NCBI GenBank assembly: GCA_902756345.1
Contig: CACVQR010000010.1
Span: forward strand, 124,001 to 188,000
Source: Fibrobacter succinogenes
Lineage (GTDB): Bacteria; Fibrobacterota; Fibrobacteria; Fibrobacterales; Fibrobacteraceae
Length of the DNA: 64,000 nucleotides
Reading direction: 5' to 3'
Shown here: positions 8,651 through 58,828 of the stretch, in pieces
Numbering within the stretch: the stretch's first letter is position 1
Layout: the number at the start of each line of letters is the position of its first letter
The notes under the pieces: model-generated
What the model saw: only the letters and a program-made list of their open reading frames with translations
The model's database searches: none
Told to the model about the DNA's origin: nothing
Program-made: the position numbers and the translations under genes

Positions 8651-8733
8651 GCGGCAGAGCCGCGATGTGGAATGTGGGATGTGAGATGAGAAATGTTTAA
8701 TTACTCATTACACATTTCACATTAGTCATTTAC
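8651..8733. repeat. Heptad repeat array with GCGGC-N3-GCCGC hairpin (RATGNGR word)
   Basis: A small hairpin (8651-8663, GCGGC-aga-GCCGC) begins directly after the tamA stop. From 8664 the sequence runs in strict 7-bp steps: GATGTGG, AATGTGG, GATGTGA, GATGAGA, AATGTTT, AATTACT, CATTACA, CATTTCA, CATTAGT, CATTTAC. The second half is the inverted, degenerate copy of the first, so the whole can fold into a long imperfect hairpin. It contains the stop codon of the convergent ABC gene (8726-8728). The function is unknown; it may also stop transcription in both directions. Confidence 0.85.
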
Positions 8734-15881: not shown

Positions 15882-16427
15882 ATGAATTTCGTTTCTAAAA
15901 TTTTATCTATTGCAGCCATTGCAGCAGTTGCGCCTTTTGCGCAGCTTGCTCCGGAACCCCAGATGGCCGACGTGAAGTTGATGCAGGATTCTACCACCAA
16001 CCAGCCCATGAAGATGGACTTTTCTAAGCCGCTTTCGGGCATTAGCGATCCGGGGATTCTGTTCAGCCAGTTTGCAAACAGGCCTCTTTTGATCTATTAC
16101 TTTAGCCCCAAGTGCCCGCACTGCCAGCGCCACATTTCCGAAATCCAGGACCTGGTCAAGGAATACGAGCCCAAGGGTTTAACCGGCATCGCCATTGGTC
16201 TCGGCGGCGGCATCAAGAAAAACGACATCCGTCTGTTTATCGACCAGTTCCACGTAGCAATCCCCGTATTCCAGGATAGCGACTACAAGTTCGGCCCCGC
16301 TTACGGCACCGGCTACATTCCGGTCGTGTACGTAGTGCAAAAAGACGGAACCTTCTACCGCTACGAAACTTTGAACGAAGCGAACATGAACCACATGCGC
16401 GCCACGCTCAATAAGATGTTTAAGTAG
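15882..16427 (+). CDS. Exported thioredoxin-like protein (CPHC active site)
   Basis: 181-aa TlpA/peroxiredoxin-like periplasmic protein. The ATG at 15882 follows AAGGG, six bases away; an in-frame ATG at 15837 would put extra residues before the signal peptide. Residues 1-23 form a signal sequence (MNFVSKILSIAAIAAVAPFA). Residues 70-170 have the thioredoxin fold, with YYFSPKCPHCQRH carrying the redox-active CPHC and a cis-Pro in GTGYIPVVYV. Possible roles are disulfide reduction or cytochrome maturation in the periplasm; no partner gene is near. CPHC is the DsbA-type dipeptide, but the fold order looks TlpA-like. Followed at once by a heptad repeat. Confidence 0.8.
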   Translation: MNFVSKILSIAAIAAVAPFAQLAPEPQMADVKLMQDSTTNQPMKMDFSKPLSGISDPGILFSQFANRPLLIYYFSPKCPHCQRHISEIQDLVKEYEPKGLTGIAIGLGGGIKKNDIRLFIDQFHVAIPVFQDSDYKFGPAYGTGYIPVVYVVQKDGTFYRYETLNEANMNHMRATLNKMFK

Positions 16428-16550
16428 AATTCTGAATTCAGAGTTCAGAATTCAGAGTTATTATAAATCTAACGCCAACTAATATAATTGCGGCGTAGCC
16501 GCCTAGCTAAACAATCCGAAATCCGAAATCCGAATTCCGAATTCCGATTT
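16428..16550. repeat. Heptad repeat array around a GCGGC hairpin (AATTCAG / CCGAATT words)
   Basis: From the base after the stop codon: AATTCTG, AATTCAG, AGTTCAG, AATTCAG (16428-16455). Then comes a spacer, the hairpin GCGGC-gta-GCCGC (16490-16502), and the opposite-facing units CCGAAAT, CCGAAAT, CCGAATT, CCGAATT, CCGATTT (16516-16550). This lies in the convergent gap between the thioredoxin-like gene and PBP1A, ending three bases before the PBP1A stop. Confidence 0.87.
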
Positions 16551-16552
16551 AA

Positions 16553-21646: not shown

Positions 21647-22144
21647 ATGGCTAAAGATTTATGCCCCTGCGGTTCCGGTAAGGAATACGGAGAATGTTGC
21701 GAACCCATTATCAAGCAGAAAGTTCTCGCGGCAAGCCCCGAAGCATTGATGCGTTCTCGCTACACCGCTTACGTAAAGCAGGAAATCGGCTGGCTCAAGG
21801 AATCTCTCGAACCCACGCAGCGTGGTGATTTCGACGAACCGAGCGTGACCGCTTGGAGCAAGGAATCCGAATGGCTCGGCATCGAAATCAAGCAGACCAA
21901 GACCGAAGAAGAAAAGAACATCGGCTGGGTCGAATTCATCGCCCGCTTCAAGCAGGGCAACATCACCCGTAACCACCACGAACTCGGCGAATTCCATAAG
22001 GTCGGCGGCGCATGGTTCTTCTACGACGGTCGTGCCGTGAAGCAGGAAACTGTCCGTCACGAAGGTCCGGTCGTTGGCCGTAACGATCCGTGCCCGTGCG
22101 GTTCTGGCAAGAAGTACAAGAAGTGCTGCGGCGCGAATAAGTAG
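21647..22144 (+). CDS. YchJ-family protein with two SEC-C zinc motifs
   Basis: 165-aa cytoplasmic protein. It begins with a SEC-C motif ([15 protein letters not shown], residues 5-19) and ends with a second ([13 protein letters not shown], about 148-160). Between them is the NTF2-like YchJ core ([25 protein letters not shown]...VEFIARFK). The SEC-C motif binds zinc; the function of YchJ is not established. An AAGGA-type site precedes the ATG. There is no operon partner: the upstream 180-bp gap holds only AT-rich DNA, and downstream a heptad array starts immediately after the stop codon. Confidence 0.9.
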
Positions 22145-22230
22145 ACAGTAGACAGTAGACGGTAAACAGTTTTAATTAGGCGGCTTTGCCGCGATTATAG
22201 AACTTCCTACTTCCTACCGTCTACTTCCTA
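22145..22230. repeat. Heptad repeat array around a GCGGC hairpin (ACAGTAG / CTTCCTA words)
   Basis: Units ACAGTAG, ACAGTAG, ACGGTAA, ACAGTTT run from the base after the ychJ stop (22145-22172). Then GCGGC-ttt-GCCGC (22180-22192), then the opposite arm CTTCCTA, CTTCCTA, CCGTCTA, CTTCCTA (22203-22230). The arms are degenerate inverted copies. The word differs from that of the other loci while the layout is identical to 16428-16550. Confidence 0.88.
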
Positions 22231-22266
22231 CTAAATAATAATCTTCAACCTTAAATCATTAAGCAA

Positions 22267-26871: not shown

Positions 26872-26907
26872 AGATTACCTCTAGTTTTTAGATTAAAAAA
26901 TCGACCT

Positions 26908-26973
26908 AATTCGGAATTCGGATTTCGGAATTTTTATCAGCTAACAACTCCTAATTCATAATTCCGAATTCTG
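26908..26973. repeat. Heptad repeat array (AATTCGG / AATTCCG words)
   Basis: AATTCGG, AATTCGG, ATTTCGG, AATTTTT (26908-26935), a 17-bp spacer, then AATTCAT, AATTCCG, AATTCTG (26953-26973), the inverted sense. It sits between yebC and the stop of the next minus-strand gene, reaching the last codon of that gene. No GCGGC hairpin. Confidence 0.82.
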
Positions 26974-26976
26974 AAT

Positions 26977-27789
26977 TTACTTGTTCTTGAGTTGGCAACG
27001 GCGCTTTTCCTTGACGCTAAGACTCGGATCGTCGCATTCATCGCCTGAAACTTTTTTCTTTTTCTTCTTCTTGGTCGGAGCAGTTTCTTCGTCAGCAGCA
27101 TCAACGCGGCGCTTGCGCTTGTTCATCGTTGATTCTTCTTCGGCTTCGACTTTTTTTTTCTTTTTTTTCTTCGGAGCAGCTTCTTCTTCGCTAGCTTCTA
27201 CACGGCGCTTGCGAGTGGTAATGGTAGCCTCTTCCTCGGGCTTCTTTTCAGCCTTTTTCTGCAGAGTGCGGAGTTTAGCCTTGTCGAGCGGGTCGGCGGA
27301 GGCCCTGGTAATGGCCTTGTCATACTTACCGCCCCACACGTTACCAAGAAGCGAACCGGATTCCAGAGCATCCTTCAAAATGCCCATGGCCCATTCGTCA
27401 TTTGCCGGCGGCAAAAGCTTAAAGCGCAGGTTACGGATTCGGGTCGGTTCGTCTTCAAAGTAGAGCATCATGTCAAAGAAGCCCACCTGATATTCCTTGT
27501 TGTCGGAGCCAACGGCTGTAGACGGAACATAGGCAAGCATCGCATAGACATCGCCATCGAAAAGGCCCGTGATCAAGGCATCGCCGTCACCGCCCGGGGC
27601 CTGCACTTCACCGTCAGCCTGGAAAGCCCACGGAGCGACATCCACCGTCAAGCGGAACTTGTGATAACCCTTATCGGCCTTTTTCAGCTTGAGCAGCGCA
27701 CCCGAAAAAGCCTGGAACTCAGGCTCCAGCGTCTGCGCCGAACAAACCGCAGCAAAAACCAAACAAAGCAACACTATAAGTTTTTTCAT
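26977..27789 (-). CDS. Exported protein of unknown function with Lys-rich tandem repeats
   Basis: 270 aa; not recognised as a known family. Signal peptide 1-18 (MKKLIVLLCLVFAAVCSA). Residues 20-175 form a globular part (YHKFRLTVDVAPWAFQADG, NLRFKLLPPANDEW). The C-terminal 90 residues hold about two and a half copies of a unit of roughly 30 residues: a basic RKRRV, an acidic EEE-type run, then seven or eight lysines. The end has a small Cys pair (DECDDPS...RRCQL). GGAGG precedes the ATG. The Lys runs come from long A-rich codon tracts that could slip. It may bind polyanions such as nucleic acid, teichoic-like or acidic polysaccharide material; this is inference only. Confidence 0.75.
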   Translation of the reverse strand: MKKLIVLLCLVFAAVCSAQTLEPEFQAFSGALLKLKKADKGYHKFRLTVDVAPWAFQADGEVQAPGGDGDALITGLFDGDVYAMLAYVPSTAVGSDNKEYQVGFFDMMLYFEDEPTRIRNLRFKLLPPANDEWAMGILKDALESGSLLGNVWGGKYDKAITRASADPLDKAKLRTLQKKAEKKPEEEATITTRKRRVEASEEEAAPKKKKKKKVEAEEESTMNKRKRRVDAADEETAPTKKKKKKKVSGDECDDPSLSVKEKRRCQLKNK

Positions 27790-29917: not shown

Positions 29918-31165
29918 CTAGTGAGTCAAGGTGTTGTTAGCATCCATCACACAACGGACTGGCTCAAACATATTTTTTCCACCTGAATTTCCATCAGAGT
30001 CTAAAGATTGCGAAACAGATGAAAAAAAGATGTTCTTTGCATTCTTTTGATTCAACTCAGTAGGCATCCAATAATTAACAAATTCATGGATTCCGGAAAA
30101 ATCCTTCCCTCTAACCCATTCTCCAGTTGGAATAATCGCCATACCAGAACTATTTGAACCAGCATTTTTTTCCCATACAGCCTTAGAACGGAGACTACTA
30201 GAATTTTTTTTAGTATGCGCCCATTCATACTGATTCATAACGTGCCAGCCGTCCGGGCAAATTCCTTGCCAACGGACTACACGAGGATCGCTAACGCTCT
30301 TAACCGCATCGGCAAAACTCTTGCAAGCGCTATTGCTATCCACAGCAACAGAATCACAGACCTTGGGCAAATTCATAGCCTCGGCCCAAGTGTAAAGACC
30401 GCCAAAGTGATTGTCGCAGAACCATTCATCGTCTACGTAGCACAATTTTTCTGTCACTTTGTCGTCAAATTTCGTTGTTCCACCCAATACCATTTTACCG
30501 TAATTCAAGTTTTCGGCCATCACATAGAAGGTATCCCTACCCTTACCATCCTCGGAACGCCAAATAAACTCAACATACTTGTACTTGTGACTATCTCGAG
30601 GGTCTTCAAACTCTAGATATTCCCCGCTGTAGCCAGCAAAAAGGCTATCTAAATTGGGGTGTTCCTTATTTTTTTTGATTGCAGCGAGAGAATCTCGAAT
30701 GTAGGAACTAATTATCGAATCTGTGTCCCAACGTCCATTTCTGCATGTTGCAAAAACTAAGTCTCCTCTGTCAAATATAGCGGTATCCCCCTCATCACAA
30801 ATATAGAATACGAATTCGCTACTACTCGACTCAACCACAGACGAGCTACTATTCTTGCCGCTTACGGAACTAGAGGACTTCTTTTCTGTTACAGAAGAAC
30901 TGGATTTTTTAGAATCTTTCTGAGAAGACGAAGATGCGTCTTTATCTTTACCCGAAGAACCGTTGTTGTCATCGCTACTCGACGAGATTTCACCGATTGG
31001 ATCGGGAGCGGAGCTACTAGATTCATCGCCACATGCAACGAGCAGGGCTAGGAGAACGGACAGAGCCAATAACATGCGAAGCGAATGCCGCGGCAGGCTG
31101 CTTGCAGACTGACATGGCTGAGCTGATGCTGTTATGCGCTTGCGCAAAACGTTAAAAATCTTCAC
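29918..31165 (-). CDS. FISUMP-domain lipoprotein 2
   Basis: 415-aa paralogue of the lipoprotein at 11.5 kb. The start is GTG at 31165 (VKIFNVL), five bases behind GGAGGT, in the same context as locus 1. Signal peptide with an unusually long n-region (1-30), hydrophobic core, lipobox LVAC with Cys45, then GDES. Ser-rich linker with Lys/Asp (about 50-125). FISUMP domain: YLEFEDPRDSHKYKYV, ENLNYGKMVLGG, WFCDNHFGGLYTWAEAMN, CPDGWHVMNQYEW, PVRCVMD at the end. Surface-exposed location is inferred from the lipobox. It lies 102 bp downstream of an Rpn-type gene and upstream of a conserved 3' flank. Confidence 0.92.
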   Translation of the reverse strand: MKIFNVLRKRITASAQPCQSASSLPRHSLRMLLALSVLLALLVACGDESSSSAPDPIGEISSSSDDNNGSSGKDKDASSSSQKDSKKSSSSVTEKKSSSSVSGKNSSSSVVESSSSEFVFYICDEGDTAIFDRGDLVFATCRNGRWDTDSIISSYIRDSLAAIKKNKEHPNLDSLFAGYSGEYLEFEDPRDSHKYKYVEFIWRSEDGKGRDTFYVMAENLNYGKMVLGGTTKFDDKVTEKLCYVDDEWFCDNHFGGLYTWAEAMNLPKVCDSVAVDSNSACKSFADAVKSVSDPRVVRWQGICPDGWHVMNQYEWAHTKKNSSSLRSKAVWEKNAGSNSSGMAIIPTGEWVRGKDFSGIHEFVNYWMPTELNQKNAKNIFFSSVSQSLDSDGNSGGKNMFEPVRCVMDANNTLTH

Positions 31166-32436: not shown

Positions 32437-33393
32437 ATGCAGATTACTAACGCTTCTCAACTTACTGGTGTTTTCCCCGCGTTGTTCACCCCGCTCAAGA
32501 ACGACGATCCCAAGAACCTTCGCAACTCCATCGACTACAAGAAGATGGGCCAGATGATCGACGACGTGATTGCTAACGGCGCAAGTGGCGTGCTCCCAGC
32601 CGTGACCACGGGTCAGAGTGCGACGGTTTCTCCGCAGCAGCACCTCGATGTCATCAAGTTTACGCTCGACTATGTGGACGGCCGCGTGCCCGTGATTGCC
32701 GGTGCCGGTTCCAACTGCACCCGCGAATCTATCGAAATGATCGAAAACGTTCAGAAGATTGCCCCGGTGGCAGTCCTCTGCGTAACAGGCTATTACAACA
32801 ACCCGCCGCAGGAAGGCCTCCTGAAGCACTACCGCACGCTCAGCAGCGAAACGGGCGCGAAGATCGTGATTTACAACGTTCCGGGCCGTACCTCCAGCTA
32901 CGTGCACCCCGACACCCTTATCGAACTTGCCGAAGACAAGAACATCATCGGCCTCAAGCAGGCGGTCGAATTCGGCTTTGGCGAAAAGTTCCACGAAGAC
33001 ACCATGCGCGTCATCAAGGAAACCAAGGGCAAGGACTTCGCCGTCATGAGCGGTGAAGATGGCTTGTTCGCAGACCTCCTCGAAATGGGCGGCACGGGCC
33101 TCATCAGCGCTTCGGGCAACATCCCCGAGGCCACGAAGACGTTCGTGGACCTGTACAAGGCATTCCAGGCCGGCGACAAGGAGAAGGCGCACAACCTGCA
33201 GAAGGACGCCCGCGACTTCATCGACATCACGTTCTGCCGCAAGAACCCGATTCCGCTGGGCACGCTGTTCAACAGCCCGCTGTTCCAGCCGCTCGTGAGC
33301 GTGAAGGATACCGCAAACGGTGCAGACGCTGTCGCCCGCATCATGAAGTTGATTGAAGAAAAGGCCCCGAGCCTCAAGAAGTACCATATTTAG
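32437..33393 (+). CDS. dapA: 4-hydroxy-tetrahydrodipicolinate synthase
   Basis: Aldolase condensing pyruvate with aspartate semialdehyde, first committed step of lysine and diaminopimelate synthesis. 318 aa, slightly longer than usual. Schiff-base lysine Lys174 in IIGLKQAVE; Tyr146 with YNVPGRTSSY; GxxG-type VTTGQSATV where E. coli has GTTGES. The Thr-Gly-Gln-Ser variant and the pair of insertions mean a related class I aldolase (NAL family, for example N-acetylneuraminate lyase) remains possible. No Shine-Dalgarno; a TATATT box ends ten bases before the ATG, pointing to a (nearly) leaderless mRNA. Monocistronic, flanked by heptad arrays on both sides. Confidence 0.88.
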   Translation: MQITNASQLTGVFPALFTPLKNDDPKNLRNSIDYKKMGQMIDDVIANGASGVLPAVTTGQSATVSPQQHLDVIKFTLDYVDGRVPVIAGAGSNCTRESIEMIENVQKIAPVAVLCVTGYYNNPPQEGLLKHYRTLSSETGAKIVIYNVPGRTSSYVHPDTLIELAEDKNIIGLKQAVEFGFGEKFHEDTMRVIKETKGKDFAVMSGEDGLFADLLEMGGTGLISASGNIPEATKTFVDLYKAFQAGDKEKAHNLQKDARDFIDITFCRKNPIPLGTLFNSPLFQPLVSVKDTANGADAVARIMKLIEEKAPSLKKYHI

Positions 33394-33397
33394 TTGG

Positions 33398-33475
33398 TAG
33401 AACTTAGACGCTTCGCTTGTAGAGCTTAGAATTATCTTCTAAACTCTAAGTTCTAAGCTCTAAGTTCTAAGTTCT
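33398..33475. repeat. Heptad repeat array (TTCTAAG word) after dapA
   Basis: GTAGAAC, TTAGACG (33398-33411), the centre CTTCGCTTG, TAGAGCT, TAGAATT (33420-33433), then the opposite sense ATCTTCT, AAACTCT, AAGTTCT, AAGCTCT, AAGTTCT, AAGTTCT (33434-33475). Eleven or so units with inverted arms, ending just before the ribosome-binding site of the next gene. Confidence 0.85.
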
Positions 33476-33495
33476 ATTTAATCCAGGAGAATCCA

Positions 33496-43498: not shown

Positions 43499-43566
43499 AG
43501 TTCAGAATTCGGAATTCAGATTTCAGAATGGACTCAAGATTTCCGAACTCCGAACTCTGAAATCCG
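43499..43566. repeat. Heptad repeat array (AATTCAG / AACTCCG words)
   Basis: AGTTCAG, AATTCGG, AATTCAG, ATTTCAG (43499-43526), a 12-bp spacer, then ATTTCCG, AACTCCG, AACTCTG, AAATCCG (43539-43566) in inverted sense. It begins two bases after the stop of the cNMP-fold gene and runs to the putative -10 box (TATATT, 43574-43579) of yajC. Confidence 0.85.
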
Positions 43567-43618
43567 AATTTTTCTATATTTACCCCGTAAATCAATTCAC
43601 CCCCTAGCAGGTATAAAC

Positions 43619-43999: not shown

Positions 44000-44539
44000 A
44001 TGGCTCTGCTCGAAATTAGAACATACGGCGACCCGGTACTTCGCAAAAAGTGCGAGCCCATCACCGAGATTACGCCCGAACTGCGTCAGCTCGCCAAAGA
44101 CATGCTCGAAACCATGTACGACGCTCCGGGTTGCGGCCTTGCCGCTCCGCAAATCGGCAAGAACATCCGCTTGGTCGTGATTGACACCGCTATTCCTGGC
44201 GAAGAGGACCCGCGCCCTTACATCATGTTCAACCCCGAATGGGAACCTGAACCCGATGCAAAGCCGGTGCCTTACGACGAGGGCTGTCTTTCTGTGCCGG
44301 ATATTTTCTGCAACGTGATTCGTCCCGACAAAGTGTGCGTACGCTTTTTCGACATCAATGGCGAACCTCAGGAACTGCATGATTGCGACGGGCTCTTTGG
44401 CCGCTGCATTCAGCACGAAACGGACCATCTGAACGGCGACCTGTTCGTAGACAAGATTTCGACTGCTGACCGCACCATGAACCAGTCTAAACTGCGCAAA
44501 ATGGCTAAGGACACGCAGGCGAAGTTGAAGAAACATTAA
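44000..44539 (+). CDS. def: Peptide deformylase
   Basis: Fe2+ (or Zn2+) hydrolase removing the N-formyl group from new proteins. 179 aa. Motif 1 GCGLAAPQIG (51-60), motif 2 EGCLSVP with the metal Cys, motif 3 QHETDHLNG with both metal His and the catalytic Glu. Between motifs 1 and 2 there is a slightly longer insert (EEDPRPYIMF) as in type 1 enzymes of Gram-negatives. Three bases after yajC. A heptad array starts at the stop codon. Confidence 0.97.
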   Translation: MALLEIRTYGDPVLRKKCEPITEITPELRQLAKDMLETMYDAPGCGLAAPQIGKNIRLVVIDTAIPGEEDPRPYIMFNPEWEPEPDAKPVPYDEGCLSVPDIFCNVIRPDKVCVRFFDINGEPQELHDCDGLFGRCIQHETDHLNGDLFVDKISTADRTMNQSKLRKMAKDTQAKLKKH

Positions 44540-44565
44540 TTCTGAATTCGGAGTTCGGATTTCGG
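44538..44565. repeat. Short heptad array (AATTCGG word) at the def stop codon
   Basis: AATTCTG, AATTCGG, AGTTCGG, ATTTCGG in phase. The first unit includes the last two bases of the def TAA. No inverted partner, no hairpin. Confidence 0.75.
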
Positions 44566-44608
44566 AATCATTCTTCAGTAGTCAAGTCGAATGTTCAAAA
44601 GGGAAAAA

Positions 44609-51143: not shown

Positions 51144-53956
51144 TCCTACTTGTCGCCGAAAAACCGTCTGTCGCAAACCAACACTACCGCCCTATGCTGG
51201 AGCGGTTGGAAGGGGAAAAATTCACCCAAGGCGACGGATGCCTGATTGGCAAGAACCATTGCATCACCTGGTGCGTAGGTCACCTGATTACCCTTGCGCC
51301 GTTAGACGCTTACCCCGGTTTTGAAGGCGGCTGGCGACTTTCGAATTTGCCCCTGCTCCCAGAAAAATTCAAGCTCATGGAAATCGAGAGCACCAAGAAA
51401 CAGCTGAATGTGGTGCGGCAGATGATGGAGCAAGCAGACGTGCTGGTGAACGGCGCGGATGCCGGCCGCGAAGGTAACTTGATTTTTGACTTGGTGCTCG
51501 ACTACACGCCCTCTTTTAAGCAAAAGACCATCAAGCGCCTATGGGTGAACAGCTACGTGGCCAAGGACTTGGACAAGGCCTGGAAGAACCTAGAAGACGC
51601 TACCCAGCGCGTGAATTTAAGCTATGCAGCCCGCTTAAGACAGCGAGCCGACTGGATGGTGGGACTGAACGCGACACGCGCCTACACGCTCACAGCAGGG
51701 CGCGGCAAGATGATTTCGGTGGGGCGCGTGCAGACTCCGACCCTAAACCTGATTGTAGAACGCGACACCATCGTAGAACAATTCAAGGAACTGTTCTACT
51801 ACAGCGTCGTGGGCACATGGAAAGGGTTCCAGGCACAATATGTCAAACGCGAAGAAGACACCAAAGGCGAAGCAAATCTTAAAGTCGCGGTTTTTGAAAA
51901 AGAAACGGAAGCGAATGCGGTTGTAGCGCGATGCGTCCCTCCTGCCGAAGCTGCTATAGCAAAAATCGATAACCAGCAAAAGAAGCAATTTCCGCAGAAG
52001 CCTTTTGACCTGACCGAACTCCAGAAAGAGGGCAACAAGCGTTTTAAATACAGCGCCCAGCAAGTTTTGGATTGCGCGCAGAACCTGTACGAAAAGAAAC
52101 TGCTCACCTACCCACGTACCGATTCGCAGTACCTGCCCGACACCATGAAGCAAGAGGCATTCGCCCTCGCACAGAAATTGGCAACACCCGAGCAGCAAAA
52201 GGTTTTCCGTTCTTTCGATGAAAATTTCGTCTTCATCAATTCGAGCAAGGTGACCGACCACTTTGCCATTATCCCCACCGGCGAAGCTCCGAACGATTTG
52301 CCCGAAATGGAGCAGAAGATTTACGACCTGGCCAAGGAACGCTTTGTGCAGGCGTGGCTGAAGCCGTACGTGTGGGATGAAATGGAGGTGACATTGCAAA
52401 GCAATGTCATCCTGAGCGAAGCATCAGCGAAGTCGAAGGATCCAGATTTATTCCGATTAAAGCTCAAGCGCAACGAAGATTTGGGATTCCGCGCACTTGT
52501 GAAGGAAGAAAAGAAAAAGACTAGCAAGAAGAAAGGAGATTCCCGCTCGGAGGCGGGAATGACAAGTGCAGGTGACGAGGGCAAGGGCGACAGCGATGAA
52601 ATCACGAACCTGGTAGAAGTTTTCCCGGAATGGGCTGTTGGCGAACACGCGCCTTTTGACAGCGTAGAATTGCAAAAGAAAAAGAAGAGCAAGCCCAAGT
52701 ACTATACCGAGGCGACTCTTTTGGCCGCAATGAAAACCGCCGGCAAGCAGATCGAAAACGAGGAACTTGCCGAAGCCATGAAGGACCGCGGCCTAGGTAC
52801 GCCGGCAACGCAAGCAGGCATTATCGAGACTCTCAAGAAGCGCGGCTTTATCGAAGCGCAAAAGAATTATCTGGTGAGTACAGAGCGCGGACGCGAAGTG
52901 ATCGCCTTGATGGATGAAAAAGTCAAGTCACCCGAAATGACCGGCGAATGGGAATACAAACTTTCGCAGGTCGAAAAGGGCGAGCTTCAACCGGCTGAAT
53001 TCCGCGACGGAATCGTTGAATACGTGAAGCAGCTGTTCGCCGATTTACATGCGCGATACGGCTGCCAGTTCGAGCGCGAAACCGCAACCGAAAGCATTCC
53101 ATGCCCCAAGTGCGGGAGCGCGCTCGAAGTAGCCCCCTGGGGCTACGTGTGCCCCAAGACCGAATGTGGATTCCGATTCGGGCACACTGTGGCAGGCAAA
53201 ATGCTTTCTCATTCTGAAACGAAGACCTTGCTTGCCGAAGGCCATGTAGGCCCGCTTTCTGGTTTCAAGAGCAAGAAAGGCACCGAATTCTCGGCAAAAC
53301 TTTCGGTTGACAAAGATTTCAACATCCAGTTTGAATTCGAAAGCGACGGCAAGTTCCACGGGCAAAAAACAGAATACAAGTGCCCGCTCTGCGGCGAGCC
53401 CCTCGAAGAAAACAAGAACGCCCTATTCTGCACCAATGCTACCGATGGCGTCGACTGCAAATTCACGCTATTCAAGACCGTCGCAGGCCACACGCTTACC
53501 GTCGCCGAAATAAACGAACTCTTTACCAATGGCGAAACACCGCTGATTCAAGATTTCAAGAGCAAGAAAGGCTCTGATTTTGCCGCTCGCCTCAAATGGG
53601 GCGAAGGCGCCGACAAGGGCCGCGCTGTTTTTGAATTCGCTCGCAGGAACCTCCCCTGCCCCGTTTGCGGAGACCAATTGCGTTTTCGCACCGGGACATC
53701 GAACCAAGGCAATGGCGAAGCGAATCACGCCGCTTACGTGTGCATGAACCCGCAATGTGGTTTTGGAATTCCGCAAGTATTCTATCAGCGCAAACTCACC
53801 GACGACGAAGTCGAAGGATTGCTCAAGAACAAATTCACGCCGGTCCTCGAGCCGTTCAAAAAGAACGATACGACCTTCCGTGCAGCACTTGAAATCCGCG
53901 ACGGCGGCAAGCTCGCCTTCAACAAATTAACCGTCGAAGTCATCAATCAAAAATAA
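51140..53956 (+). CDS. topB: Type IA DNA topoisomerase (topoisomerase III) with zinc-finger tail
   Basis: 938 aa. GTG start at 51140 overlapping the previous stop. Toprim domain: MILLVAEKPSVANQ, ADVLVNGADAGREGNLIFD. Cleavage domain: ISVGRVQTPTL and the active-site tyrosine in LLTYPRTDSQYLP (near 323). RGLGTPATQAGIIETL is canonical. Three C-terminal Cys4 units: CPKCGSALEVAPWGYVC, CPLCGEPLEENKNALFC and CPVCGDQLRFRTG..YVCMNPQC. The stretch around 415-495 is not conserved in type IA enzymes and contains two dispersed DNA repeats translated in frame. Role: decatenation and relaxation of negative supercoils with recombination helicases. Confidence 0.94.
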   Translation: MILLVAEKPSVANQHYRPMLERLEGEKFTQGDGCLIGKNHCITWCVGHLITLAPLDAYPGFEGGWRLSNLPLLPEKFKLMEIESTKKQLNVVRQMMEQADVLVNGADAGREGNLIFDLVLDYTPSFKQKTIKRLWVNSYVAKDLDKAWKNLEDATQRVNLSYAARLRQRADWMVGLNATRAYTLTAGRGKMISVGRVQTPTLNLIVERDTIVEQFKELFYYSVVGTWKGFQAQYVKREEDTKGEANLKVAVFEKETEANAVVARCVPPAEAAIAKIDNQQKKQFPQKPFDLTELQKEGNKRFKYSAQQVLDCAQNLYEKKLLTYPRTDSQYLPDTMKQEAFALAQKLATPEQQKVFRSFDENFVFINSSKVTDHFAIIPTGEAPNDLPEMEQKIYDLAKERFVQAWLKPYVWDEMEVTLQSNVILSEASAKSKDPDLFRLKLKRNEDLGFRALVKEEKKKTSKKKGDSRSEAGMTSAGDEGKGDSDEITNLVEVFPEWAVGEHAPFDSVELQKKKKSKPKYYTEATLLAAMKTAGKQIENEELAEAMKDRGLGTPATQAGIIETLKKRGFIEAQKNYLVSTERGREVIALMDEKVKSPEMTGEWEYKLSQVEKGELQPAEFRDGIVEYVKQLFADLHARYGCQFERETATESIPCPKCGSALEVAPWGYVCPKTECGFRFGHTVAGKMLSHSETKTLLAEGHVGPLSGFKSKKGTEFSAKLSVDKDFNIQFEFESDGKFHGQKTEYKCPLCGEPLEENKNALFCTNATDGVDCKFTLFKTVAGHTLTVAEINELFTNGETPLIQDFKSKKGSDFAARLKWGEGADKGRAVFEFARRNLPCPVCGDQLRFRTGTSNQGNGEANHAAYVCMNPQCGFGIPQVFYQRKLTDDEVEGLLKNKFTPVLEPFKKNDTTFRAALEIRDGGKLAFNKLTVEVINQK
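52391..52443 (+). repeat. In-frame dispersed repeat within topB (VILSEA type)
   Basis: The palindrome ACATTGC-aaa-GCAATGT (52391-52407) runs into GTCATCCTGAGCGAAGC..GCGAAGTCGAAGGATCC (52406-52443). The second part is a well-known intergenic repeat pattern in many bacteria. It encodes NVILSEASAKSKDP in TopB without a stop or frameshift. Confidence 0.8.
52535..52564 (+). repeat. In-frame dispersed repeat within topB (ATTCCCGC type)
   Basis: GGAGATTCCCGC-tcggag-GCGGGAATGACA, a hairpin with 8-bp arms that belongs to the common GATTCCCGC...GCGGGAATGAC repeat pattern. It encodes GDSRSEAGMTS. It lies 91 bp after the first in-frame repeat. Confidence 0.8.
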
Positions 53957-57736: not shown

Positions 57737-58828
57737 TTGGTCGAAGGAACTCCCGACGGCAAGTTTCTCCGAGAGCGTTTCCAAAAGTTCTTCTGCGACA
57801 TTTTCTTTTTTACCCTTAGCAAACGACCAAGAATTGGCCCCCAACCACGGGGGGACGATGTGTTCTGGGAATACAAGATGATTCAGAATAATGTTGGGCA
57901 ATGCGAAAAATTTTGTCTTGATAAACAAGCGACCTAAACAATAAGTCAACAAGTCGGGCTTGGTACAAACCGTAAAGGGAACTCCCGACAAAGCAAGTTC
58001 CAAGGTCGATGTTCCGGGGGCGGTCAATGCATATTCCGCACTTTGATACAGAGCCTTTCGCTCTGCGGCACTTTGGGGAGCGACAACCACAGGAATCTTA
58101 TACTTCTTAAAAACATCCACCAGTTCTTGGCGCGCTGCCACCACCACTACATTTTTAAGCCCCTGCACCGCTTTCAAATAAATAGGCAAGTTGCGGAGCG
58201 CCTGCGCCTTTCGACTCCCGGGCAACAGCAAACAACGTGGATTAGGAACCGCTTCGGTCTCCGCAATTCCATGCGACGCCTTATTTCTCTCTAAATGCAA
58301 CTCCGAATTCCGAATTCCGAGTTCCGAATTTGCAAACGGGTGTTGAACGCGAACCACATTACAGCCGGCTTCGCGGTACACCGATTCCTCAAAATCAAAA
58401 AATACGGCGAGCTTGACATACGGATTTTTCGCAAGCACCTTCGCACGCTTGCGTTTCCAGGCCCACACTTGTGGAGGCGCCACATACAAAGCCGGCTTGC
58501 GGAGTTCCCCCGCCAGAGCCACGAGTTTCATGTTAAAGCCCGGATAATCAACAGCAATCAGCCCGAGACATTCCGGCGATTCAAGCGCCGTCTTTAGTGC
58601 AATAAAACTCTGACGCAATTTAAAGTACTTGGGCAATACATCGCCAAAGCCAGAAACCGGCAAGTTTTCGAAGTCGACCAAGGGCAACATTCCCGCCGCC
58701 TGCATGCGGCGGCCGCCTGAACCTTTCACGGTAAAATTTTTTGAAACTAGACTCTTGACTAAGGGTTCGCCAACGGAATCCCCGGAGTCTTCGCCCGCGC
58801 AAATCAGAATGTACGGCTCGCACGCCAT
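57689..58828 (-). CDS. lpxB: Lipid-A-disaccharide synthase
   Basis: GT19 glycosyltransferase joining UDP-diacylglucosamine and lipid X, inner-membrane surface. 379 aa. ILICAGEDSGDSVGEPLV, MQAAGM, VDYPGFNMKLV, YVAPPQVWAW and LLPGSRKAQ are diagnostic; the APGTSTLELALSGVP loop follows. The stretch between AGCNVVRVQHPF and the LLPGSRK block carries NSELGIRNSEL, encoded by a heptad repeat array inserted in frame at 58299-58333. It starts six bases after the dnaE stop and is probably cotranscribed. It overlaps mutL by 48 bases tail to tail. Shows that the organism makes lipid A. Confidence 0.94.
   Translation of the reverse strand: MACEPYILICAGEDSGDSVGEPLVKSLVSKNFTVKGSGGRRMQAAGMLPLVDFENLPVSGFGDVLPKYFKLRQSFIALKTALESPECLGLIAVDYPGFNMKLVALAGELRKPALYVAPPQVWAWKRKRAKVLAKNPYVKLAVFFDFEESVYREAGCNVVRVQHPFANSELGIRNSELHLERNKASHGIAETEAVPNPRCLLLPGSRKAQALRNLPIYLKAVQGLKNVVVVAARQELVDVFKKYKIPVVVAPQSAAERKALYQSAEYALTAPGTSTLELALSGVPFTVCTKPDLLTYCLGRLFIKTKFFALPNIILNHLVFPEHIVPPWLGANSWSFAKGKKENVAEELLETLSEKLAVGSSFDQLALEFLGQFVERKAQ
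58299..58333. repeat. Heptad array inside lpxB, in frame
   Basis: Plus-strand units AACTCCG, AATTCCG, AATTCCG, AGTTCCG, AATTTGC (35 bp). On the coding strand it adds about 11 residues (NSELGIRNSEL). It uses the same AATTCCG word as the intergenic arrays at 16.5, 26.9, 43.5 and 44.5 kb. Confidence 0.85.

Follow-up and report, generated by a model that had tools for sequence, protein, structure and literature searches.

Heptameric repeats of the words GGGAATC and GGGGA(T/C)T are known from Xanthomonas and Nostoc (Rehm et al. 2015; PMC4692102). Their arrays have a 7-bp unit, show a bias to about four units, are mostly intergenic and are thin in coding DNA; they follow stop codons within 50 nt on the coding strand, and 70–75 inverted pairs occur in Xanthomonas (PMC4692102). 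The Rickettsia palindromic elements (RPEs; Ogata et al. 2000, reviewed in PMC10969869) are palindromes of about 100–150 bp. They are dispersed between genes and are also found in frame in unrelated housekeeping genes, where a recurrent peptide occupies a tolerated place (PMC10969869). In Borgs, the units of tandem repeats inside ORFs are perfect and their length is a multiple of three; the encoded protein segments are disordered, and turnover is fast (PMC9879509). The TAACTGA heptads of marine Beggiatoaceae are abundant intergenic repeats with several related words; most of them lie immediately upstream of start codons and very few in ORFs (PMC4679880). PARCELs are repeat-coding DNA of patchy, probably horizontal distribution and encode 25-residue amphipathic repeats in membrane and surface ORFs (PMC2996958).

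The window analysed here was a stretch of 64,000 nucleotides from a Fibrobacter succinogenes genome, labelled G000. Its lpxB gene contains a translated heptad array of the AATTCGG type (Table 1). The gene-end arrays of this genome match a known kind, the Xanthomonas-type heptameric repeats, by position, strand, unit number and pairing. However, AATTCGG holds GG doublets only, so a G-quadruplex (G4) reading is inapplicable to its arrays, and it is a member of the wider kind and not of the G4 family. Since AATTCGG has a Xanthomonas-like stop-codon position, strand and pairing without G4 potential, G4 formation is, we argue, not the common reason for gene-end heptads. Unlike the Xanthomonas and Nostoc repeats, about 18% of the strict sites here lie in genes, in frame. 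Several words occupy one gene-end place in sister genomes, whereas 83% of X. campestris repeats keep their context in X. axonopodis (PMC4692102).

The dispersal between genes and the in-frame presence in unrelated housekeeping genes, with a recurrent peptide in a tolerated place, are shared with RPEs. The heptads are not filed as RPEs because they are not palindromic elements; the array is tandem, about 35 bp long and frame-independent in its peptide. The palindromes beside the arrays in the LpxB, TruB and UvrB linkers are closer to RPEs than the heptads are. Disordered protein segments and fast turnover are shared with the Borg repeats, but the unit here is 7 bp and degenerate. Like the Beggiatoaceae heptads, the arrays are abundant between genes and occur in several related words, but they stand behind stop codons. 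Repeat-coding DNA with a patchy, probably horizontal distribution is shared with PARCELs, whereas the products here are linker inserts in housekeeping enzymes. In the open-access literature, no report was found of in-frame heptads in interdomain linkers or of repeat-word swapping, and nothing specific was found on heptads in Fibrobacter.

Table 1. Positions in the window of lpxB, its linker features and other heptad arrays.
Feature	Position	Strand	Basis or remark
lpxB, lipid-A-disaccharide synthase, 379 aa	57689..58828	-	Open ORF, Pfam, PDB; single match in the G000 genome
Heptad array, sense AATTCGG AACTCGG AATTCGG AATTCGG AGTTG	58297..58332	-	Tandem Repeats Finder, window word counts
Variable interdomain linker, residues 167–199, between HPFA and LLLPGSR	58232..58330	-	Orthologue alignments
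Degenerate remnant of dispersed palindrome CATTGCGAGGAACGCAGTGACGAAGCAATC	58245..58280	-	Alignment with G060 (clear) and G020 (partly)
Putative recombination tract (~140 bp), nearly identical to G080, closest sisters differing	58191..58332	-	Identity profiles
Inverted pair AATTC[GA]G / C[CT]GAATT around GCGGC-GTA-GCCGC hairpin, between convergent genes	16426..16552	.	Intergenic
Inverted heptad pair, intergenic; 76-bp insertion	26905..26977	.	Absent from G003, G005, G030, G010
Inverted heptad pair, intergenic	43499..43570	.	G003 empty; other-word pairs there in G030, G101
Single AATTCGG-type array directly after TAA stop	44536..44568	+	Window word search
Heptad pair, GATGTGA-type word	8664..8730	.	
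Heptad pair, GTAGACA-type word, around GGCGGC-TTT-GCCGC	22140..22232	.	
Heptad pair, TTCTAAG-type word	33390..33480	.	Empty in G003, G005, G010; GTAGGAA-type pair in G030

The lpxB product matched PF02684 over residues 7–324 (Pfam, E 7.4e-49). Its solved homologues were E. coli LpxB 5w8s (PDB, E 3e-19) and 5w8n. The family-invariant residues are present in the array-bearing protein. The array has five AATTCGG-type units on the lpxB sense strand; on the plus strand it reads GCAACTCCGAATTCCGAATTCCGAGTTCCGAATTTG, with a period of 7 and 4.1 copies (Tandem Repeats Finder). The ORF stays open across it and gives the peptide ANSELGIRNSELH. The initial annotation had proposed that a heptad array is translated in frame in lpxB, and this was borne out by the open ORF, in which NSELGIRNSEL is read. 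The frame is kept because this peptide is encoded by exactly 33 nt (58298–58330). The two-unit word, with at most one mismatch, occurred 9 times in the window against 0.09 expected from shuffles. As had also been claimed, the word in lpxB is the one used between genes, namely in the pairs starting at 16426, 26905 and 43499 and in the single array at 44536 (Table 1).

The array is located in the linker between the N and C domains, flanked, as proposed, by two conserved blocks, HPF (residues 163–165) and LLPGSR. The AlphaFold2 model of LpxB, built on 28 genus sequences, had a mean pLDDT of 85. Its sole stretch below 50 was residues 170–193, inside the linker, and the surface loop guessed earlier is very probably a flexible loop. 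At this place the linker of the E. coli enzyme 5w8s is unrelated, in agreement with the expectation that distant LpxB proteins lack the array.

The genus was represented by 80 genomes, one per species. LpxB of the closest sisters (G003, G005, G101, G102 and G030) was 83–88% identical outside the linker, and their linkers were shorter and unrelated. A homologous array-plus-palindrome linker was found in the more distant G080 (68% identity; NSEFGIRSSELHLERHKASHGIAETEAVPS), G020 (66%; NSEFGIRISELYIEENTSLRGISATAAISS) and G060 (65%; KIKNSETDVGRDVSLRGNAVTEAITT, with a degenerate array), so the array is not unique to this strain as had been supposed. Nor was the insertion 20–30 residues long throughout: the net length difference was +9 residues relative to the closest sisters and about +17 to +20 relative to G030 and G010. 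Because G080, G020 and G060 share the linker while closer sisters carry other linkers, a simple insertion into lpxB of this strain is rejected; judging from the alignments, it did not happen, and the entire linker differs. LpxB of G000, G080 and G020 had equal array lengths (11 residues, 33 nt) and the next 22 residues in common. The array differences among these three included nonsynonymous ones (L/F, N/S/I). The G086 linker had features in common with the linker of the G000 sisters.

The second half of the G060 linker is a copy of a dispersed palindrome, CATTGCGAGG..GAAGCAATC, which is present in 43 of 61 genomes of the genus; the G000 version is degenerate. The palindrome CATTGCGAGGAGCGAAGCGACG had no match at ≤3 mismatches in the window, the lpxB remnant included, and the remnant is therefore named only via G060 and G020. 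In G033, this LpxB linker contains a tandem repeat of 7 residues, AIGPNSRATSPNSRAIGPDAR, whose period in the DNA is 21 nt. This repeat (AIGPNSR) was rejected as a heptad array, as its DNA is not a 7-bp array at the threshold used. A second heptad array, of a GAAACCT-type word, is present near the 3' end of G020 lpxB (ORF offset 1128–1159).

The heptad family was counted in the whole genome. The three-unit pattern, with at most two mismatches, gave 92 matches in the 3.36-Mb G000 genome and 0 with the reversed control. Arrays of period 7 numbered 23 in 396 kb, against 0 for periods 4–6, 8, 10 and 11. The main units were AATTCGG, AATTCAG, ATTTCGG and AGTTCGG. The unit varied mainly at two positions, A[A/T/G]TTC[G/A]G, in genes and at gene ends alike, and the typical array length was 32–34 nt. 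The unit ATTTC[GA]G made up 42 of about 190 main intergenic units and 1 of about 43 in genes. Sites were placed with our own codon-usage ORF caller, which also gave the gene boundaries. There were 65 unique strict AATTCCG sites, 53 intergenic and 12 in genes; coding DNA was strongly depleted of them (p about 2e-29, tested against 83% coding). The word is patchily distributed in the genus, with 92–109 matches in G000, G002 and G080 and 0–9 in most others. The exact 28-mer (AATTCCG)4 was found in at least ten phyla, mostly in MAGs; its carriers were Clostridia, Acidobacteriota, Planctomycetes, Verrucomicrobia, Myxococcales, Synergistaceae, Calditrichia, Peribacteria, a cyanobacterium and Luteimonas. 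It was crowded in few genomes of each group, and other words there were often AATT plus three bases. The in-gene counts given here come from the G000 genome; those from the other phyla were left out because the ORF caller runs through arrays there.

Of the intergenic sites, 34 began within 40 nt after a stop codon (mostly 2–16 nt) with AATTCGG reading away from it, and five read toward one (p = 2e-6). An inverted partner was found within 150 bp downstream in 24 of the 53 sites and upstream in 2 (shuffled control 0). The pairs folded at −22 to −33 kcal/mol, given as raw energies. Some enclosed a GC hairpin with a T run and others none, and a clear T tract was absent from most arrays. At C1:147569 of G000, heptad arms surround a putative GC terminator of the ordinary type with a T run; at this place G003 and G005 have a different putative terminator, surrounded by another heptad word. 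Empty sites were compared in G003, G005, G030, G101 and G010; G080 was left out because it is collinear with the window only over 54–64 kb. The empty site of the 76-bp insertion was clean, with a gap of 0 in G003 and G005 and of 1 in G030 and G010.

It had gone unnoticed that lpxB is one of about a dozen genes of this genome with such an array, the 12 in-gene sites lying in 12 different genes. Ten were in sense orientation (NSEFGIR) and two antisense, a bias that is weak taken alone (p = 0.04). The hosts, named from Pfam matches or by recognition, were YidC (recognised by sequence), LpxB, TruB, an RluC-like pseudouridine synthase, an HrpA-like helicase, a UvrA-like protein, a GT4 glycosyltransferase, UvrB, a SPASM-domain protein, CoaBC, a periplasmic binding protein and one small ORF. 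Most arrays were located between Pfam domains, for example between S4 and pseudouridine synthase, DEAD and Helicase_C, Flavoprotein and DFP, or UvrB and UVR; the in-frame copies thus sit mainly in interdomain or disordered linkers. The in-gene arrays were 32–55 nt long. One of the 12 had an inverted partner, so the in-gene element mostly consists of a single arm. As the count covers one word, in-gene arrays of other words are under-represented in it.

Across eight relatives, different in-frame repeats were found in these linkers. In HrpA, G000 and G080 carry AATTCGG heptads, G030 carries AGAGACG heptads (QTRDER), G060 has a VPELAEGPK palindrome and four others have a short plain linker. In TruB, G000 combines heptads with a palindrome, G080 has heptads, G101 has TRDER heptads, and G005, G060 and G020 have another element. 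In CoaBC, the linker of G000 and G080 is made of AATTCCG heptads and that of G010 and G020 of TRDE heptads, and the remaining genomes have a GC hairpin element; the UvrB linker carries palindromes in several relatives. HrpA DNA of G000 and G030 was identical (1.00) for about 300 bp upstream, 0.31–0.43 identical at the linker and 0.95–1.00 identical thereafter. From these near-identical flanks around a diverged linker, the change in HrpA was recent and local. Non-coding-type repeat DNA has thus been turned into linker peptide across a set of housekeeping enzymes of one bacterium, and sister species allow the states before and after to be compared between almost identical flanks. Whether small repeats feed protein evolution, a question raised for Rickettsia, becomes directly testable in a free-living anaerobe.

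The lpxB linker tract shared by G000 and G080 suggests short-tract recombination, because the linker is more similar between these genomes than the enzyme around it. Linker-window DNA identity to G000 was 0.93–0.95 for G080, 0.32–0.48 for G003 and 0.20–0.32 for G030. Downstream of the linker the ranking was reversed (0.3–0.7 for G080, 0.8–0.9 for G003), and upstream the G000–G080 identity of the conserved enzyme was 0.8–0.9. The near-identity of G000 and G080 runs from the array to CTCCGCAA after PGSRKAQ. The linkers of the sisters point to transfer from a G080-like relative to this genome, by what would be short-tract homologous recombination; G080 could also be the recipient, or an unsampled donor could be common to both. 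Another history places the array-plus-palindrome linker in the common ancestor of G000, G080, G020 and G060, followed by loss or replacement in the G000 sisters. It agrees with the homologous linker in G080, G020 and G060, and G080 is not extremely distant, as dnaE, the lpxB neighbour, is 88% identical to that of G080. Such an ancestry is nevertheless unlikely: at least two independent losses (G003/G005/G101/G102 and G030/G010) are required, G086 has features of the sisters' linker, and an unconstrained linker would be better conserved between G000 and G080 than the enzyme on both sides of it. Growth in place by replication slippage of a chance heptad is very improbable for lpxB. In many bacteria the most over-represented repeats are those with a 7-bp unit, and polymerase slippage has been put forward (PMC4692102, PMC4679880); however, the same word with the same two variable positions stands at 65 sites, and the linker shared by G000, G080 and G020, in array length and in the residues that follow, largely refutes slippage here. 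The first copy may still have arisen by slippage. Draft genomes can contain misassembled short tandem repeats, but arrays of about 35 bp are shorter than a read, their units have diverged and the independent assemblies of G080 and G020 show the same linker, which reduces an assembly or sequencing artefact to a negligible probability.

The C-terminal half of G080 lpxB, compared with 57766–58163 of the window, is far more diverged than the N-terminal half, dnaE and mutL. It looks as if one LpxB domain had been exchanged.

Taken together, it is probable that the lpxB array consists of translated heptads of the dispersed family, tolerated in a linker, brought there by recombination and serving as a spacer, and that the intergenic pairs are transcript-end hairpins. 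By their position and folding, these pairs would act in termination or 3'-end protection. The repeat (AATTCGG)n is stop-free in every frame of both strands and gives NSEFGIR in all three sense frames, so copies landing in or carried into genes would persist only at places that tolerate a floppy, hydrophilic insert. The NSELGIR-type peptide in LpxB is most likely only a spacer, presumably neutral, and repeat DNA seems to fill spare protein linkers and to be swapped in them. Selection of the lpxB array for a function, as an RNA or DNA signal in the message or as a peptide for regulation or protein contact, would fit the unit pattern ADTTCRG kept in most units, the sense orientation favoured in genes and at gene ends, and the array length of 33 nt in lpxB of G000, G080 and G020. 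It is hardly to be expected, given that LpxB of most relatives lacks the array, that the linker is predicted to be disordered and that the arrays differ by nonsynonymous changes. A hairpin arm read from the gene at the transcript end would explain the sense bias at gene ends, not that inside genes. A broader and rather doubtful proposal is that gene ends and linkers are exchangeable 'slots'. An active and precise replacement process, which may be coupled to transcription, would load them in sense orientation, drawing on a common pool of several heptad words and several palindromes; repeat DNA would then be a steady source of new linkers.

Other repeats were observed in the window. A copy of another dispersed palindrome, CATCCTGAGCGAAGC...GAAGTCGAAGGATC, was located at 52403–52446. 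The DNA of a Ser-rich coding stretch (30819–31050) was 82% identical to another genome location. A 96-bp repeat was present in two copies at 27055–27244, in a Lys/Glu-rich coding stretch.
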